Shown here one piece after another: positions 11,788 through 18,667 of a stretch of DNA of 64,000 bases. The notes under the pieces were generated by a model. It ran no database searches. It had not been told where the DNA came from and saw only the letters and a list, made by a program, of their open reading frames with translations. Each line of letters opens with the position of its first letter. Position 1 is the stretch's first letter. The stretch lies in assembly GCF_003932785.1 (NCBI RefSeq), contig NZ_RQYT01000011.1, forward strand, positions 1 to 64,000, written 5' to 3'. Made by a program: the position numbers and the translations under genes. The stretch comes from Arachnia propionica. Its GTDB lineage: Bacteria > Actinomycetota > Actinomycetes > Propionibacteriales > Propionibacteriaceae.

Positions 11788-12726
11788 TCAGTCGATCACG
11801 AGTTCCAGGGAGGCGACGCTGTCGCACTCGACGTAGCCCAGCACCCGGGTCAGCCACTCGGAGATGCCGCGGCTGGGGACGTCGACGCTGATGCCACACG
11901 ACTGGATGCCGTCAGCGGCCATGGCCCGCATCGACCGGGCCAGCATCGCCTCGGCGATCCCATGACCCCGCTCCTCGGGGGCCACCCCCAACCGGTCGCA
12001 CCAGCCCTGGTCCTCAACACCCTCGGTGTGACTGACGAGGCCGTTCAGGCAGTACCCGATGAGGCGTTTGTCCCGGAGCGCGACGACCGACCAGTCGGCG
12101 CGGAAACTGGGGGCCGACAACGATTCGGCCCACCGCTGCGCGCAGAAGGGCGCCTCGAAGCACACCCGATGAAGAGCCAGGACCTCCTGGCTGAACCGTT
12201 CGGAGAACTCGACGAGTTCCACCCCCTGGGGAACCTGCACCGAGGGGAGGGGGTGGAGCGGCCGGGTCATGTCGGCGAGGCAGCGGATCAGCCGGAAGCC
12301 CCGCTGGACCAGCAGCTGCTCCTGGGCCGGATTGCCCTCCACGAAGCACTGGAGCCGCAGCGGCTCGCCCGGCCGCGTCACGTCACGCCACTCCACGGCA
12401 CGGTCGATCTGCCACTGCAACAGGTTGGCCCCGATCCCGAGGTGCCGGTGCGTGGGATGGATGGTCCCGAGGAGATGGACGAGGGGATCGGTCGCATCCG
12501 GGTCCACGTGGTTCCAGGCGAACGCGAGCAGGCTGCCGTAGTCGTCCCAGCCTCCCACCGCGATCCCGCGTTCGCTGCCCTCGGGCAGCGATTCCAGCAG
12601 GTCGAGCACCGGGGTCACCAGCGGCTCGTCGATGATGGCCACCTGCGCCTGCAACTCGGTCACGGCCACCCAGTCGTCCCCCTCGACGGGACGCCAGTTC
12701 AGGTGCGGTTCAACGAATGGATCCAC
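11788..12726 (-). CDS. Tandem GNAT-family N-acetyltransferase
   Basis: The protein of about 312 residues is built from two GNAT folds. The first has its acetyl-CoA loop at HLLGTIHPTHRHLGIGANLL (about 93-112). The second has RLGVAPEERGHGIAEAMLA (about 250-268) with a good R/Q-x-x-G-x-G/A site. Length and tandem layout resemble mycothiol synthase MshD, but I cannot assign that substrate. GTG 12726 is 8 bases past the stop of the PlsC-like gene and begins the homologous sequence; a longer reading would overlap that gene. It closes the hisA-FAR-LarA-PlsC series, so it may N-acetylate an amine in the same pathway. The substrate is unknown. Confidence 0.75.
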   Translation of the reverse strand: MDPFVEPHLNWRPVEGDDWVAVTELQAQVAIIDEPLVTPVLDLLESLPEGSERGIAVGGWDDYGSLLAFAWNHVDPDATDPLVHLLGTIHPTHRHLGIGANLLQWQIDRAVEWRDVTRPGEPLRLQCFVEGNPAQEQLLVQRGFRLIRCLADMTRPLHPLPSVQVPQGVELVEFSERFSQEVLALHRVCFEAPFCAQRWAESLSAPSFRADWSVVALRDKRLIGYCLNGLVSHTEGVEDQGWCDRLGVAPEERGHGIAEAMLARSMRAMAADGIQSCGISVDVPSRGISEWLTRVLGYVECDSVASLELVID

Positions 12727-12734
12727 GTCGCTGC

Positions 12735-13475
12735 CTAGGGGCTCCGCCAGATGCCGGGCCCGTGCCCGGGACGAGGGGCCGTCTGCTGCCAGCGTCGACG
12801 CCACCGCGGCATCAGCGGCTCCTCCGCCGTGAGCGGGCGCCGCTGCTGCAGCGACCACCACGAAACGTCGTTGCGATGGAACAGCGCCCCGACGGCGGCC
12901 TGGAGTTCCGCCGTGGCCTCGTCGATCGACTGACCGCGCACATAGATGGGGGCGCCGAATCGCACGGACACCTTGGGACGGCGTTTGAGGGCCAGCCGCA
13001 GGACCTCCTTGAGGTGGTACGTGCCGACGAGGGCGACCGGCACGACGGGCACGTTGTGGAGGTTCGCCAGCTCCGCCGGCACCGTGGAGAACTCACCGAC
13101 GGCCCCGTCGATGTCGGACGGCTCGGAGAACACCACTGCGCTCCGCTGTCGACCGAGCGCTTGGTTCGGACGCCTCATCGTGGCCCGGAGCCGGGGCGGC
13201 AGGGCCGCCTTGAGGACCCGCCAGTCGAGCACCCCCTGCTCGTTGCAGGCGAGGATGACGGGGGCGTCGAGTCCGTTCAGCGCGTCCAGGCCCGCCACCT
13301 GGTACTCCAACCGCCAGGCCAGCTGGTTGAGCATGCTGGGGGTCTCGCTGAGGTCGCCGCGTCCCAGCCGATGACGACGTCGAGGGGCCCGCGGGGGCGC
13401 CCCCTCGGGCCTGCCGTTGCGCAGCCCGAACCCGGTCCGGGCGAATCGGACCAGATCGGCGAACCAGGTGATCAC
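12735..13475 (-). CDS. PlsC-like lysophospholipid acyltransferase homologue with altered active site
   Basis: A 246-residue protein with the PlsC/AGPAT fold pattern. There is a motif I-like block VILACNEQGVLDW (about 73-85), a motif II/III block around GRQRSAVVFSEPSD (about 108-121) and motif IV NVPVVPVALVGTYH (about 141-154). In true acyltransferases motif I is N-H-x4-D. Here the His is replaced by Glu (N78-E79-Q80-G81-V82-L83-D84), so normal His/Asp catalysis is doubtful. GTG 13475 overlaps the LarA-like stop by 4 bases and has GGGGAG six bases upstream. It could acylate a glycerolipid-like product of the neighbouring reductase, or bind acyl chains without turnover. Confidence 0.7.
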   Translation of the reverse strand: MITWFADLVRFARTGFGLRNGRPEGAPPRAPRRRHRLGRGDLSETPSMLNQLAWRLEYQVAGLDALNGLDAPVILACNEQGVLDWRVLKAALPPRLRATMRRPNQALGRQRSAVVFSEPSDIDGAVGEFSTVPAELANLHNVPVVPVALVGTYHLKEVLRLALKRRPKVSVRFGAPIYVRGQSIDEATAELQAAVGALFHRNDVSWWSLQQRRPLTAEEPLMPRWRRRWQQTAPRPGHGPGIWRSP

Positions 13476-14986
13476 CGGCACTCCCCTGCCGCCAGACCGG
13501 GACCGTGGAGGTAGGTGATCCGCTCCACGTCGGCGCGTTCCCGCGCCAGTTCGAGGGCGTCGTCGAGGGTCGTCGCGGCGCGATGCCCCAGCACCGCTGC
13601 GGAACTGCGGGAGCCACCGACCCAGATCACCTCGGCCAGCCGCGACGTCACCTCCTGGATCCGGTACCACGAGTGGAACACGGCCAACGGATGGTGGGCA
13701 TGGTGCTCCCGATAGAGCTTGAGGTGCCAGTCATCCTCGAGGGCCTGCGGCTCGAAACGTTGCCGGATCTCGTGGGGGTCCCGCGTCACCGGCAACACCT
13801 TCTCGAAGAAATCGGAGGTCGGGGACTGCAGGCGGTTGGAGAACGCACGGGTGAGGGGATGGAGGGCCAGCGCCACCCCGCCCTCACGCACGAGGGGCTG
13901 GTCGCCGTGGCTGCCCACCCGCTCGACGAGGGCGTGGTGCGCGGCGTTGATGGGCGAGCCGATGGGGTCGCCGGGGTCGAAACTGCTGCCCCACACGGAG
14001 GTGATGACCACATCCGCGGTGGGGACGGAGACGGCGTTCGCCGCGTGCCACACCTCCGAGGCCTGGGGCACCACGGCGGCCGCGTCCCCGGCCACGATGT
14101 CGAGCAGTTCGTAGTCCGCCCGGGGCGCCGCGTAGAGCCGGTGCGAGCCATGCATCGGCATGAGACCGATGAACTGTCGCGTCGCCGCGAAGGACAACTG
14201 TTCCGGCAACCGCCACTCCCACTCCCGCTCGTTGAGGAAGCCGAGGGGACCGCGCATGAGGGGCTGGCCGAGCACGGCGGAGATGGCGAAGACGTTGACG
14301 GCCCTGCCGATGGCGGCCGAGACGGTGTCGACGGCGTCGCGGGAACCGTCGATCCCGGCGACCCGGTTGATCGTGGCCACATCGGTGGCTCCCGTGGCCA
14401 GGACGCAGCCTGCGCCTCGGCCGTGACACAGGTCGACCACGACGACGAGGTCGGATTCGGCGATCCGCGGATCCACCCGGACCGGTTGGCCATCGACACT
14501 GGTGACCTCGACCAGATCCGGGGAGGCCACGTCGTGGCTGTGCACGAACCCATCGGGCAGGAAGGACGCCGCGACACGATCCCCCAGGGCCGCCACGACG
14601 TCCTGCGTGGCCCAGCGGGGGGTCAGACCGGCCGCGATGACGATGGCCACATCGTCCACCCCGGCCCTGGCGGCATGTTCCAGCACCCGTTCCACGATGC
14701 TGCGCCGGATGTCGAAACGCATCCGGGGCTGCACGGGATGGACGCTCCCCACGACGATGGTGAGTTTCATCCCGGGCCGCAGCACGGCCGGTAGCGGGTC
14801 ACTCGCGATGGGGGCCGCGAGGGCCCCGTCGATGAGGAGCACCGGATCGCTCGAGGGGGAGGCATCCGGCGGGTACACCACCTGGGTCCCGGCCGGGAAG
14901 CGCTGCAGCTGCACCCGGCTGCCGGCGAGCGTCAGCAGGTCGGGGGTTCGTTCGTCGACCGTGAGGACGAATCCTGGACGTGTCAT
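13472..14986 (-). CDS. LarA-like (DUF2088) protein, divergent lactate racemase homologue
   Basis: The 504-residue protein resembles the nickel-pincer lactate racemase LarA in its N-terminal half: VVGSVHPVQ at about 79-87, HSHDVASPDLVEV at about 149-161, and PRIAESDLVVVVDLCHGRGAG at about 173-193. Candidate metal His residues are 83, 151 and 188. The covalent cofactor lysine of LarA is not seen: there is no Lys between residues 140 and 190, and the usual GFSGG-type loop is replaced by GRGAGCVLATGATD. It is also about 80 residues longer than typical LarA. ATG 14986 overlaps the reductase stop by 4 bases. It is probably not a lactate racemase; its reaction is unknown. Confidence 0.65.
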   Translation of the reverse strand: MTRPGFVLTVDERTPDLLTLAGSRVQLQRFPAGTQVVYPPDASPSSDPVLLIDGALAAPIASDPLPAVLRPGMKLTIVVGSVHPVQPRMRFDIRRSIVERVLEHAARAGVDDVAIVIAAGLTPRWATQDVVAALGDRVAASFLPDGFVHSHDVASPDLVEVTSVDGQPVRVDPRIAESDLVVVVDLCHGRGAGCVLATGATDVATINRVAGIDGSRDAVDTVSAAIGRAVNVFAISAVLGQPLMRGPLGFLNEREWEWRLPEQLSFAATRQFIGLMPMHGSHRLYAAPRADYELLDIVAGDAAAVVPQASEVWHAANAVSVPTADVVITSVWGSSFDPGDPIGSPINAAHHALVERVGSHGDQPLVREGGVALALHPLTRAFSNRLQSPTSDFFEKVLPVTRDPHEIRQRFEPQALEDDWHLKLYREHHAHHPLAVFHSWYRIQEVTSRLAEVIWVGGSRSSAAVLGHRAATTLDDALELARERADVERITYLHGPGLAAGECR

Positions 14987-17334
14987 GAGGGCAACTTCCA
15001 ACGAGGCTGAACGGAGTGGGACGGCCAGTCGATGATCGACCAGCCGGAGGTCCGTGCCGCCCGCATGAGACCGACGTCGGGGCTGACGGCGACCGGGTTG
15101 CCGACGGTCCGCAGCATCGGCAGGTCGACGTGGCTGTCCGCGTAGGCGAACGAGGCCCCCAGATCGATGCCGTGCAGTCCGGCGTAGTGGGTGAGCCAGG
15201 CGGCCCTTGAGTCACCCACCATCGGGGGCCCGGTGAGGAAGCCGGTGCACACCCCGTCCGCGTCCGTCGCGAGGTCGGCCGCGATGATGTGGTCGAAGAG
15301 TCCCTCGAAGGGACGCGTCAACGGCCGGATGACCCCGGTGATGAGGATGGTGGTGTGTCCCGCCTCCTTGTGCTCGCGGATCCGGCGGACCGCCTCCGGG
15401 GACGTGCGGTCGAGCACGAAGGGGGTGACCTTCTCGTCGACGAATCGTTCGAGCTCGGCCAGGTTCGCCCCCTCGTAGCGTCGGTACACCTGCCGGAGGA
15501 ACACCCCGCGGTCCTTGCGTTCGGCGCCGAGATAGTTCGGCAGCTGCCCGATGACCTTCGCCAACTCGCCCATCCGCGCGGACAGGCTCATCTCCGGCAG
15601 CCGCAGCCACAGGTAGGTCTCGATGACGTTGGTCCTCATCACCGTGCCGTCGAGGTCGAAGGCGGCGAGCACCGTGCCCGGCTCGGAGGGCTTCAACTCC
15701 TTGTAGGTGGCTGCCCGGACCCGGCGCCGTTTGCGGGCCGCCTCCAAGCGCCGAACGGGATCCGTCACGGCCGGCGCGTGGACCTCCTCGATGTAGTGGG
15801 TCCAGTCGAGATCGGCCGAGTCGAAGCCGAAGGACTTCTTGTCGTCGTCGTGGAGGGAGGTGTGCAGGGCGAGGGTGCAGTCGTCGACGAAGTGCAGTTC
15901 CGACTGCAGGTACTCCCCGTACAGCCCCAGGTACTTGTTGAGGAAGTCCAGCTGCTTCGCCGTCCGGTCAAGGGCCCTGGCGGCACCGAGGGTCCGTCGG
16001 CCACGTGGGGCGAAACTGAGCAGTCGGTTGCCGATGTTCACCCCGAGGCCGGCGAACCAGAGCTTGCGTTCCACCGGTTCGGGGCCGGGGAAGTTCCACG
16101 TGGCGAGCTTCGAGGAGTCCTGGCCCTCACGGTAGGGGTGCCGCGAGAAGTAGGCGCGGATGTGCTCGTAGATGCCGCGGAAGGTCAGGGGGTTCCGGGC
16201 GCCCGAGGAGCAGTGGTAGTACTCCGGCTGACCGATCTCCGGCTGGGTGGCGCACACCGCCACGATGGCGTTGACGACGTAGTCGCACGGGATGATGTCG
16301 ATGACGGCGTCCGGTGATGCGGGGAACTCCGGGAGCTGTCCCTTGCCGTAGGCGAGGATGATGGGGTCGGCCATCTTGAAGCCCTCGATCCAGCCGGGGT
16401 GCGGATGGCGCAGGGAGGATTCCACGATGGCGGGCCGCACGATGGACACCCGCATGTCGCGGCACAGGTCGGCGACGACGGCCTCCCCCATGGCCTTCGC
16501 GAACGTGTACACATCGGTCCAGCCGAGGGAACGGGCCCGTTCGGTCCCCGCCGCGATGAGTTCCTGCTTCACCCATTCGACACGGCGTCGTTCGGTGTCC
16601 TCGCTCGTGGTGAGGTATCCGGCGCGGCGGTGCAGCTTCTCCGCCTCCTTGCGGAGCAGGGTCAACTGCTCCGAGGTACGGGAGCGGGCCTCCACCATGG
16701 CGGCCATCGCCAGTGCCGCGTCGGTTTCCCGCGCGTAGTCGACGGAATGCGGATGCGCGGCCTCCGGGATCGGACCGCGGCGTCGCCCGGCCGTGTAGGC
16801 GGTGGAGATGTGGACATAGTGCGGCACCCGCTCGAGGTTGCCCTCCCGATCGGAGCAGGACTCCCTGAATCGGGCCAGCAACGCCTCGGTGCCGAGCACG
16901 TTGGTCTTGAAGGCCTGGTCGATCGGGGGATCGAAGGAGACGTCCCCCGCACAGTGCACGAGCACGTCGATGTCGCGCGGGAGCACCGGCACGTCGGGGA
17001 GGTCACCCTCGATGACCTGCACCCGCGCGGCCATCAGCTCCTCGACGGAACCGGCCGCCTCGACGACCTCCTTGAACACGGGCTTCCTCAGCAGGGAGCG
17101 GACCCGATCCTCGGCGCTGAGCGACCCCTTGCGTCTCACGAGGACGGCCGTGCGGGTGTCCGGGCACTCGGTGAGGACCTTCCAGAGGAGCTGCTCCCCG
17201 ATGAATCCCGTGACCCCTGTCAGGGCGATCTTCTCGCCCGCGAGCAGGTCCCGGATCCGGCCGGTCAGCAGCGGCGGCGTGTGGAGTCTCGTGGTCTCGG
17301 AGGCACCGAAACTGGTGCGCGGCGCCGGGGTCAT
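14983..17334 (-). CDS. Fatty acyl-CoA reductase-like SDR fused to a HAD-IB phosphatase
   Basis: A 783-residue two-enzyme fusion. The N-terminal extended SDR (about 35-340) has the NAD(P) loop TGVTGFIG (39-46), a Ser in VHISTAY (about 177) and the catalytic Y276-x3-K280, as in FAR-type reductases that turn acyl-CoA into aldehyde or alcohol. A FAR_C-like region follows to about 540. The C-terminal HAD-IB domain (about 555-760) has D560-x-D562-G-T, a Thr at 666 (LITGV) and D733/D737 in [11 protein letters not shown]. Family knowledge suggests fatty alcohol formation plus hydrolysis of a phosphomonoester. Its ATG overlaps the hisA stop by 4 bases, an odd partner for lipid chemistry. Confidence 0.8.
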
Positions 17335-18065
17335 CGTGGTCTCCTCTCGGGCTGGGGGCCGGCCACGTCGATGGCCTCGGCGAGGGTGAAACGCCCCAGG
17401 TACAGGGCGGTCCCGATGATCGCGCCCTCAACGAGTCCCCGCAACCCGGCCAGGTCGGCGAGGGACGATATCCCCCCGGAGGCCACGATCGCGGCCTCGG
17501 TGCGTTCGCTGACCTCAGCCAGCAGTTCACGATTCGGCCCCGTCAGCATGCCGTCCGAGTTCACATCCGTCACCACGAACCGCGGGCATCCCGCCGCCGA
17601 GAGGCGGTCGAGGGTCTCCGCCCAGGGCCCGCCCTCCGTCGTCCATCCGCGGGCGGCCAGTCTCTCCCCCCGAACATCGAGGCCGATGGCGATCCGCTCC
17701 CCGTGCTCGACGATCACCCGCTCACACCACTGGGGATCCTCCAGGGCCGCGGTGCCGATGTTGACCCGCCGGCATCCCGTCGCCAACGCCCGACGCAGTG
17801 ACTCATCGTCACGGATGCCACCCGACAACTCGACGTCGATGTCGAGTCGGTCGATGATCCGGGCCAGCAACTCCGCGTTCGAGCCGCGCCCGAAGGCGGC
17901 GTCGAGGTCCACGAGATGGACCCAGGCCGCGCCCTGCTCCTGCCATCGGAGCGCCGCCGCCATCGGATCCCCGAACTCCTTCTGGGTTCCCGCCACGCCC
18001 TGGACGAGCTGGACGGCCTGCCCGTCCTGCACATCCACCGCGGGCAACAACTGCAATGTGTCCAC
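17331..18065 (-). CDS. priA: Phosphoribosyl isomerase A (HisA, probably bifunctional PriA)
   Basis: A (beta/alpha)8 isomerase of about 244 residues that converts ProFAR to PRFAR in histidine synthesis. In actinobacteria the PriA subtype also does the TrpF step. The catalytic Asp of [18 protein letters not shown] is near residue 11, a second Asp is in [12 protein letters not shown], and phosphate loops SGGI and ASGGI are present. No trpF lies with the trp genes here, which fits bifunctionality. Starts possible are TTG 18074 and GTG 18065; the latter is preferred for its spacing from a TAGGG-containing ribosome site. It ends in a 4-base overlap with the reductase-HAD gene. hisF does not follow it in this window. 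Confidence 0.9.
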
Positions 18066-18076
18066 GAGCGGCAACC

Positions 18077-18667
18077 CTACCGCCTCACGGCGTCACCCGT
18101 GAGAACGTTCAGGGCCGCACGGAGCCCCCGCTCCTGGGAGTCGAGGTCGAGGGTCGCGACCGGGGGCACGTGCACGAAGCCGCACCGGGGCCGATCCCCC
18201 TCCGGACGACGCCCGGCCTCCGTGAGCAGGGTGTACAGCAGGGCGTTGCAGACGTAGGCCCCGGCACTCAGGGACAGCTCCGCCGGCACGTCCACGGCTC
18301 GGGTGGCCGCCATCATCTCCTTGACGGGCAAACCCACCCACAGAGCATCGGGACCGCCCTCGACCACGGGAACATCGACCGGCTGTTGCTCCGCGTTGTC
18401 CGCGATGGGGGCGTCGATGAGGTTGAGCGCCACGCGTTCGTAGATGATGCCCGTGGCCCTGGCGGACAGCCCGAGCGAGACGACGTGGGTGGGACGCCAC
18501 TGCTCCATCAGCTCGTTGACCCGTTGCCGAAGGTTCCGGAACTCAACGGGCAACACCACCCCCGGGTGGGTGTCGGCGAGTCGCTCGACGAGCTGTTCGG
18601 AAGGATTGGTGTCGTCGCCCCCGAACGGTTCGAAGCCGGTGACGAGTACCCGTGCGGTCGTGGTCAT
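18077..18667 (-). CDS. pcp: Pyroglutamyl-peptidase I
   Basis: The 196-residue cysteine peptidase removes N-terminal pyroglutamate from peptides. The catalytic triad is visible: Glu in IIYERVALN (about 80), Cys in [10 protein letters not shown] (about 140) and His in CGFVHVPPV (about 165). Length is slightly below the usual 200-215. ATG 18667 has a GGAGG ribosome site about 11 bases upstream. The stop is within about 10 bases of the hisA start, so the two probably share a transcript that begins in the 77-base gap facing the sirtuin gene. Confidence 0.9.

Follow-up and report, generated by a model that had tools for sequence, protein, structure and literature searches.

What does a short run of genes in Arachnia propionica make, and which of its proteins still catalyze a reaction? 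The genes lie in the first 64,000 nucleotides of contig NZ_RQYT01000011.1 (the whole stretch analyzed, called the window below) and encode, in order of transcription, a HisA homolog, a fatty acyl reductase fused to a HAD-type phosphatase (FAR/HAD), a LarA-like protein, a PlsC-like protein and a tandem GNAT protein. An earlier note on this DNA proposed that the last four make an unusual lipid or acylated metabolite, with the LarA-like protein carrying out an epimerization or dehydration. Comparison with other Actinomycetota points to a different answer, which we regard as probable, if well short of certain: these genes would descend, in reduced form, from an ancient block of actinobacterial genes, with FAR/HAD still working and the LarA-like and PlsC-like proteins most likely non-catalytic partners under selection. 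The genes concerned are the following.

17331 to 18065, minus strand: hisA/priA, encoding a bifunctional HisA/TrpF (TIGR01919, 337 bits against a cut-off of 306).

14983 to 17334, minus strand: the FAR/HAD fusion, 783 residues (PF07993, PF12710, TIGR01490).

13472 to 14986, minus strand: the LarA-like protein, 504 residues (PF09861, Lar_N, 46.7 bits).

12735 to 13475, minus strand: the PlsC-like protein, 246 residues (recognized by alignment to the intact PlsC of the same block).

11788 to 12726, minus strand: the tandem GNAT, 312 residues (PF00583), with a possible GTG start at 12726.

The complete block was seen in Kribbella, Actinopolymorpha, some Nocardioides and many further Actinomycetota. 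Our named scan of genome contigs covered the best 80 of 203 confirmed candidate loci, on which all counts of named loci rest. Fifty belong to the family of the window (Arachnia, Tessaracoccus, Microlunatus, Enemella, others, and metagenome-assembled genomes placed with them) and 30 lie outside it, mostly in Kribbella, Nocardioides and Actinopolymorpha, genera that we equate through identical loci with our genome families f2, f3 and f4. The gene order FAR/HAD, zinc alcohol dehydrogenase, LarA, PlsC was observed directly in 29 of the 30 outside loci, the sole exception being a Pseudokineococcus locus that has FAR/HAD alone (L123); in L111, tracing the PlsC frame ran into an early stop. In three Nocardioides blocks (L037, L120 and L124), open reading frames resembling an acyl-CoA ligase and aceE lie nearby, upstream of FAR, and L120 and L124 also have a peroxiredoxin-like frame; these names were read from translations.

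The association extends across the phylum. A profile search with intact LarA matched 109 of 396 Actinomycetota genomes, 90 of them with a high-scoring type (the window's own genome excluded; two are fragments). With that genome left out, 92 of 395 gave a FAR/HAD match. Both LarA and FAR/HAD were present in 86 of these 395, LarA only in four, FAR/HAD only in six and neither in 299 (Fisher 4e-74). We fetched 40 phylum-wide loci, 35 with a high-scoring LarA and five with a more distant LarA (L191-L195). The 35 share one order and strand, with FAR/HAD present in 34 (in L182 it falls off the contig end), the dehydrogenase in 34 (all except L180) and PlsC in 26. Among the nine loci without PlsC, six have PlsY, two are cut by contig ends (L185 and L197) and one shows neither gene (L196). 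The earlier note had staked its proposal on co-occurrence of these genes in other genomes, and here it was right: FAR/HAD, LarA-like and PlsC-like genes recur as a set with a constant order in the Actinomycetota sampled.

The five distant LarA proteins (36-41% identity) were considered as block members and rejected, as they have none of the partners, except that L193 has, on the opposite strand, a weak match (82 bits) to the FAR family. They form a second actinobacterial LarA group that scores about 330-426 bits on the block profile and keeps the Asp, His124 and Lys200 in 5/5, with no lipid partners. Mid-scoring LarA proteins are also present in genomes besides these five.

The fourth gene of the ancestral block is a zinc alcohol dehydrogenase, which is missing from the window and was not visible to the earlier note. 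Orthologs (E <= 1e-60) occur in 18 of 60 relatives, and these are exactly the 18 block-bearing genomes outside the genus; none was found at this threshold in the 36 genomes of the window's genus. Only one of the 50 named family loci, L078, has the gene. The best NCBIfam matches of the dehydrogenase, all below threshold, are polyol and threonine dehydrogenases, a weak hint that its substrate may be a polyol-like headgroup.

The loss most widely shared within the family concerns the nickel-pincer nucleotide (NPN) site of LarA. Two intact block LarA proteins scored 933 and 916 bits on the NCBIfam model NF052592 (cut-off 740), which covers LarA groups 14, 15 and 16 and includes LarAH14 of Frankia. 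This is also the best NCBIfam model for the window protein, which differs in reaching only 312 bits and in having lost the NPN residues. The label LarA-like, taken over from the earlier note, is therefore supported by the Lar_N match, while the protein falls far below the cut-off of the LarA group model. Alignment with HMMER to LarA Sp, a single-histidine LarA from S. plurextorum, assigns roles to four positions (numbered as in locus L044): Asp81 binds the ribose, His124 is catalytic, Lys200 holds NPN covalently and His216 is a nickel ligand, although the ligand could be any one of residues H214-H216. All four are present in 80/80 rows outside Propionibacteriaceae (75 distinct). They never occur together in 46 Propionibacteriaceae LarA-like sequences, in which Lys200 is kept in 0/46; in the window protein the four columns read G, T, C and A.

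The residue tables behind these and the following counts take a single best tblastn segment per locus. They omit loci below L031 (which have 1.5 kb flanks), the five distant loci L191-L195, and any sequence that is interrupted by a stop within its matched segment or has fewer than 650 (FAR), 430 (LarA) or 170 (PlsC) residues. Five outside loci are doubled across two collections, such that 80, 74 and 70 rows for LarA, FAR and PlsC represent 75, 69 and 65 distinct sequences. L049 is counted as a family member in the final tables. Several genes of the region are in pieces in L047, L048 and L049, where sequencing indels are possible.

The nearest solved relatives of intact LarA are the single-histidine LarA proteins of S. 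plurextorum and B. wexlerae (9q2u, 9q3k and 9q3j). According to an excerpt of PMC12611868, LarA Sp holds NPN via Lys195, and groups 14 and 15 are without the second catalytic His. Like the single-histidine proteins as described in that excerpt, the intact block LarA has one catalytic His and Asn residues near the second His position, whereas the window protein is without even the remaining His and Lys. The genomic settings also differ, as the excerpt places single-histidine LarA among sugar metabolism genes and the block surrounds LarA with acyl reduction and glycerolipid acylation. In the excerpted text of PMC7583248, purified LarAH14 of Frankia was assayed for seven activities and had none of them, and group 16 was set aside for want of NPN residues.

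The distribution of NPN synthesis genes follows that of the intact block at close range. Outside the window's family, LarB, LarC and LarE were each found in 18/18 genomes of the order that have the block and in 0/6 that do not (Fisher 7e-6 for LarC). Within the Nocardioides-type family f3, the three occur only in the two block-bearing genomes, each with a single LarA (Fisher 0.036). No match to LarB, LarC or LarE was found in the window's genome, which is 99.99% complete. With the NPN and catalytic residues absent and the three synthesis genes not found, NPN-dependent epimerization is very unlikely in the window, and on the same grounds we rejected NPN-dependent catalysis by this protein.

LarC occurs in seven of the 36 genomes of the window's genus, all seven belonging to the eight with a second LarA, and neither was found in the remaining 28. 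In these seven congeners (G001, G013, G015, G027, G029, G031 and G034), LarB, LarC and the second LarA lie elsewhere in the genome, and LarE is present in six of the seven. Their second LarA is probably an unrelated racemase. The eighth genome, G035, has a second LarA and no LarC that we could find (the genome is 85% complete).

The acyltransferase has undergone a comparable loss. The open reading frame of the window matches no Pfam or NCBIfam model, and its kinship to PlsC, which the earlier note had also suggested, is visible only through relatives. The intact PlsC motif NHxSHLD reads NEQGVLD in the window, and PEGTRS is lost. Lacking the HX4D and PEGTR motifs as well as a Pfam match, the protein falls outside PlsC/AGPAT (PF01553). 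The catalytic His is present in 70/70 outside rows (65 distinct) versus 10/35 family sequences, and Glu takes its place in 20/35. In the family alignment the middle segment is a gap in 28/35 and PEGTR is mostly lost. Acylation by the window protein is unlikely, given that it lacks the catalytic His and the PEGTR motif.

These losses bear on the proposal that all four proteins are active, with the LarA-like protein epimerizing or dehydrating and the PlsC-like protein acylating. The gene order and the overlapping junctions are in keeping with it, and the intact relatives look catalytically competent. With the NPN residues lost, no LarB, LarC or LarE found in the genome, and the PlsC His and PEGTR gone, we judge it very improbable for the window. 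What stands of the lipid-pathway idea is that FAR/HAD, LarA-like and PlsC-like proteins belong to a conserved block of lipid type; the two reactions assigned to the LarA-like and PlsC-like proteins are unlikely here.

FAR/HAD itself appears intact, and the 783-residue length and both domains described earlier are borne out (PF07993, E 9e-48; PF12710, E 2e-32). The fatty acyl reductase spans residues ~27-526 and retains the nucleotide-binding motif, the Ser/Thr and YxxxK; the fusion matches the solved FAR 7eoz at E 6e-48. Its Sterile domain scores below the cut-off (30.9 versus 35.4 bits). The second domain (~556-753) is assigned to the HAD-IB phosphatases by TIGR01490 (103 bits, above the cut-off of 98.3) and has the DxDGT, T/S and D...D motifs. 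All 51 family rows and all 74 outside rows (69 distinct) retain S177, Y276, K280, D560, D733 and D737. At D562, the second aspartate of the HAD domain, Asp stands in 50/51 family and 55/74 outside rows and Glu in the other 19 outside rows. FAR/HAD matches were found in 36/36 genomes of the window's genus, its own included (the G006 match is truncated where its contig ends, and three more are fragmented); of 24 genomes from elsewhere in the order, 18 gave a strong match (E <= 1e-235). Conservation of this kind suggests that the window FAR/HAD is a working enzyme, predicted to make a fatty aldehyde or alcohol and to hydrolyze a phosphomonoester.

If FAR/HAD works alone among the three, are its neighbors simply decaying? 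A FAR tree built from 103 rows by a quick method (LG+G4) places all 51 family rows together on the same side of a branch supported at SH-aLRT 100, and loss of the nickel site can therefore be a single event. Since L078 branches within the family and has the dehydrogenase together with PlsC motifs, these features must either have disappeared later, on more than one occasion, or have been regained. We calculated median ratios of nonsynonymous to synonymous substitution (dN/dS) by the Nei-Gojobori method for 10 pairs in an Arachnia set and 21 pairs in a Tessaracoccus set; dS is about 1 and the values are rough. They were 0.25 (Arachnia) and 0.285 (Tessaracoccus) for the LarA-like gene, 0.22 and 0.297 for the PlsC-like gene, 0.295 and 0.361 for GNAT, 0.096 and 0.17 for FAR, 0.11 and 0.132 for hisA, and 0.064 and 0.177 for yebC. 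Rough as these values are, both degraded genes are under purifying selection and are not evolving neutrally.

Decay would leave only FAR/HAD functional, making for example fatty alcohol for lipid genes elsewhere. The combined loss of the dehydrogenase, the nickel site and the PlsC motifs is what such a process would leave behind. Decaying genes are not expected to look as these do, however: of the 45 named family loci that match, 43 have LarA-like frames of about 500 residues and two are truncated where their contigs end, dN/dS values of 0.22-0.30 are well below 1, and the change from His to Glu is common to 20/35 PlsC-like sequences, many of them within a shared NEQG.LD-type motif, which is not a random pattern. 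We consider simple decay unlikely. The same motif, conserved in the Arachnia/Tessaracoccus clade, together with purifying selection on both genes, could instead reflect re-purposed enzymes with new active sites, for example with Glu standing in for His in the PlsC fold. On our reading of the list of invariant LarA-like residues, no new catalytic set stands out, and the Microlunatus-type loci L089 and L090 altered the PlsC motif differently; re-purposing therefore seems quite unlikely to us.

Several observations weigh against the reduced block with retained, non-catalytic partners that we prefer. First, neither a larA nor a pls match turned up next to FAR/HAD in L058, L069 and L097, and the partners are thus not indispensable; simple decay would account for these loci as well. 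Second, dN/dS of the LarA-like and PlsC-like genes is higher than that of FAR, which again agrees with decay and makes relaxed constraint or ongoing decay possible. Third, some PlsC-like proteins of the family still match PF01553 (16 of the 33 sequences of a mixed alignment at E <= 0.01, at most five of them from outside the family). Fourth, the FAR tree carries a long-branch warning among its distant rows. Finally, LarC was found in 79/90 genomes of the phylum sample with a block-type LarA versus 167/305 without (LarB and LarE were searched in the order only), and is missing from 11 of the 90, six of which are more than 90% complete; for both reasons the phylum-wide link to NPN is weaker than the link within the order.

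The two outer genes of the run, hisA and the GNAT gene, are differently placed. All 50 named family loci have hisA upstream of FAR/HAD, and so do the loci of Kribbella and Actinopolymorpha, at a distance that reaches ~3 kb in L125. It was not found in 5/5 named Nocardioides loci or in L118, L123 and L129, and none of the 35 phylum-wide block loci showed it. Its absence from the Nocardioides and phylum-wide loci indicates that hisA is an inherited neighbor and not a working part, and we rejected it as a functional partner. In two loci of a distant family (L186 and L189), the block lies downstream of hisF-hisI-trpE and plsY (hisI and trpE read from translations), such that proximity to histidine and tryptophan genes also occurs far from Propionibacteriales.

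A functional link to hisA would be explained if the HAD domain were the missing histidinol-phosphatase. Besides the constant presence of hisA in the family loci, this draws on matches of 71 bits between the HAD domain and HAD-type histidinol-phosphatase models (NF052360 and NF052359), which are far under the cut-offs of 280 and 400 bits. The same genome has a HisN-type candidate at 272 bits (cut-off 275), and 59/60 genomes match the HisN-type model at E <= 0.001, though only 20/60 exceed its cut-off. As hisA is not general to the block either, we rejected this role for the HAD domain and give it next to no probability.

GNAT genes were found in 32/50 named family loci and in 0/30 outside loci, and we therefore do not count GNAT as part of the ancestral block. 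The tandem GNAT of the window matches the mycothiol synthase MshD weakly (27 bits, cut-off 163) and sits beside yebC. This gene and ruvCAB come next after the hisA-to-GNAT run (names from translations, without a family scan). On the other side, just upstream of hisA, is a pyroglutamyl peptidase gene (18077-18667), found among the named loci only in the closest relatives (L051-L053 and L085).

The junctions within the run are as the earlier note described them, with 4-base start/stop overlaps of hisA and FAR (17331-17334, ATGA), FAR and the LarA-like gene (14983-14986, ATGA), and the LarA-like and PlsC-like genes (13472-13475, GTGA); the GTG start possible at 12726 fits a GNAT gene beginning 8 bases after the PlsC-like stop. 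Gene overlaps of 4 bases are common in actinobacterial operons. The overlap of FAR and LarA occurs in only four of the 45 named family loci that have both genes, and all four come from the closest relatives. The LarA match begins 13-109 bases past the end of the FAR match in 40 others, and in the remaining one, L078, the dehydrogenase lies in between. Gene order is conserved beyond what chance would give, which cannot be said of the overlaps.

What would the complete block make? Its predicted activities suggest a modified glycerolipid. In the six loci of one family, f21, that have sequence upstream of FAR, PlsY lies directly upstream of FAR/HAD and no PlsC was found; PF02660 was confirmed for two of these PlsY proteins. 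PlsY is a glycerol-3-phosphate acyltransferase. Because PlsY replaces PlsC in one family, a glycerolipid product is likely for the complete block, and this exchange is the best evidence for such a substrate. In the pathway we envisage, FAR would reduce an acyl thioester to an aldehyde or alcohol, PlsC or PlsY would acylate a glycerol phosphate, the HAD domain would take the phosphate off, and the dehydrogenase and LarA, a predicted NPN user, would carry out hydride chemistry on a hydroxy compound. The LarA nickel site would have been lost at the base of Propionibacteriaceae, and in most of its lineages the dehydrogenase and the PlsC active site as well. The LarA-like and PlsC-like proteins of the window would then most likely have been retained as partners that bind FAR/HAD without catalyzing a reaction, or as its lipid-handling subunits.

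The closest functional analogy to the complete block appears to be the elb ether-lipid operon of Myxococcus xanthus, which in the excerpted account of PMC9131029 has a FAR1-like domain, an AGPAT-like acyltransferase and a HAD protein; the likeness is drawn at the level of shared families. In that account ElbD also has acyl-CoA synthetase and acyl carrier protein domains and neither LarA nor NPN appears, whereas neither of these two domains was among the Pfam matches of the window or L044 block proteins, such that the elb set of FAR, synthetase, carrier protein and AGPAT is incomplete here. The window also differs in lacking an acyltransferase that looks active. HAD-AGPAT fusions in actinobacterial triacylglycerol clusters, as excerpted from PMC10351704, likewise bring a PF12710 HAD together with a PF01553 acyltransferase in lipid synthesis, but in the block the HAD domain is fused to FAR and accompanied by LarA and the dehydrogenase. 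Among the matches listed, we found no description of a FAR/HAD/LarA block in the open-licence literature, although the supplement of PMC7583248 on LarA gene contexts may already tabulate it, and nothing useful on Arachnia lipids.

A bolder version of our preferred reading, which we put forward tentatively, is that a phylum-wide NPN-dependent glycerolipid pathway gives LarA group 14 a lipid-linked substrate, and that its Propionibacteriaceae form consists of FAR/HAD with two enzyme-derived, non-catalytic subunits. The link to FAR and to PlsC or PlsY points LarAH14-type proteins toward lipid-linked substrates and makes the question of their substrate testable. A nickel enzyme in membrane-lipid synthesis would, in our judgment, be unusual. 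Propionibacteriaceae in turn offer a series of losses, with the nickel site gone throughout, the dehydrogenase and the acyltransferase motifs gone in most loci, and both the LarA-like and PlsC-like genes gone in a few. The series amounts to a natural experiment, in which a pathway appears to have been stripped toward one enzyme while its disabled partners are still under selection.

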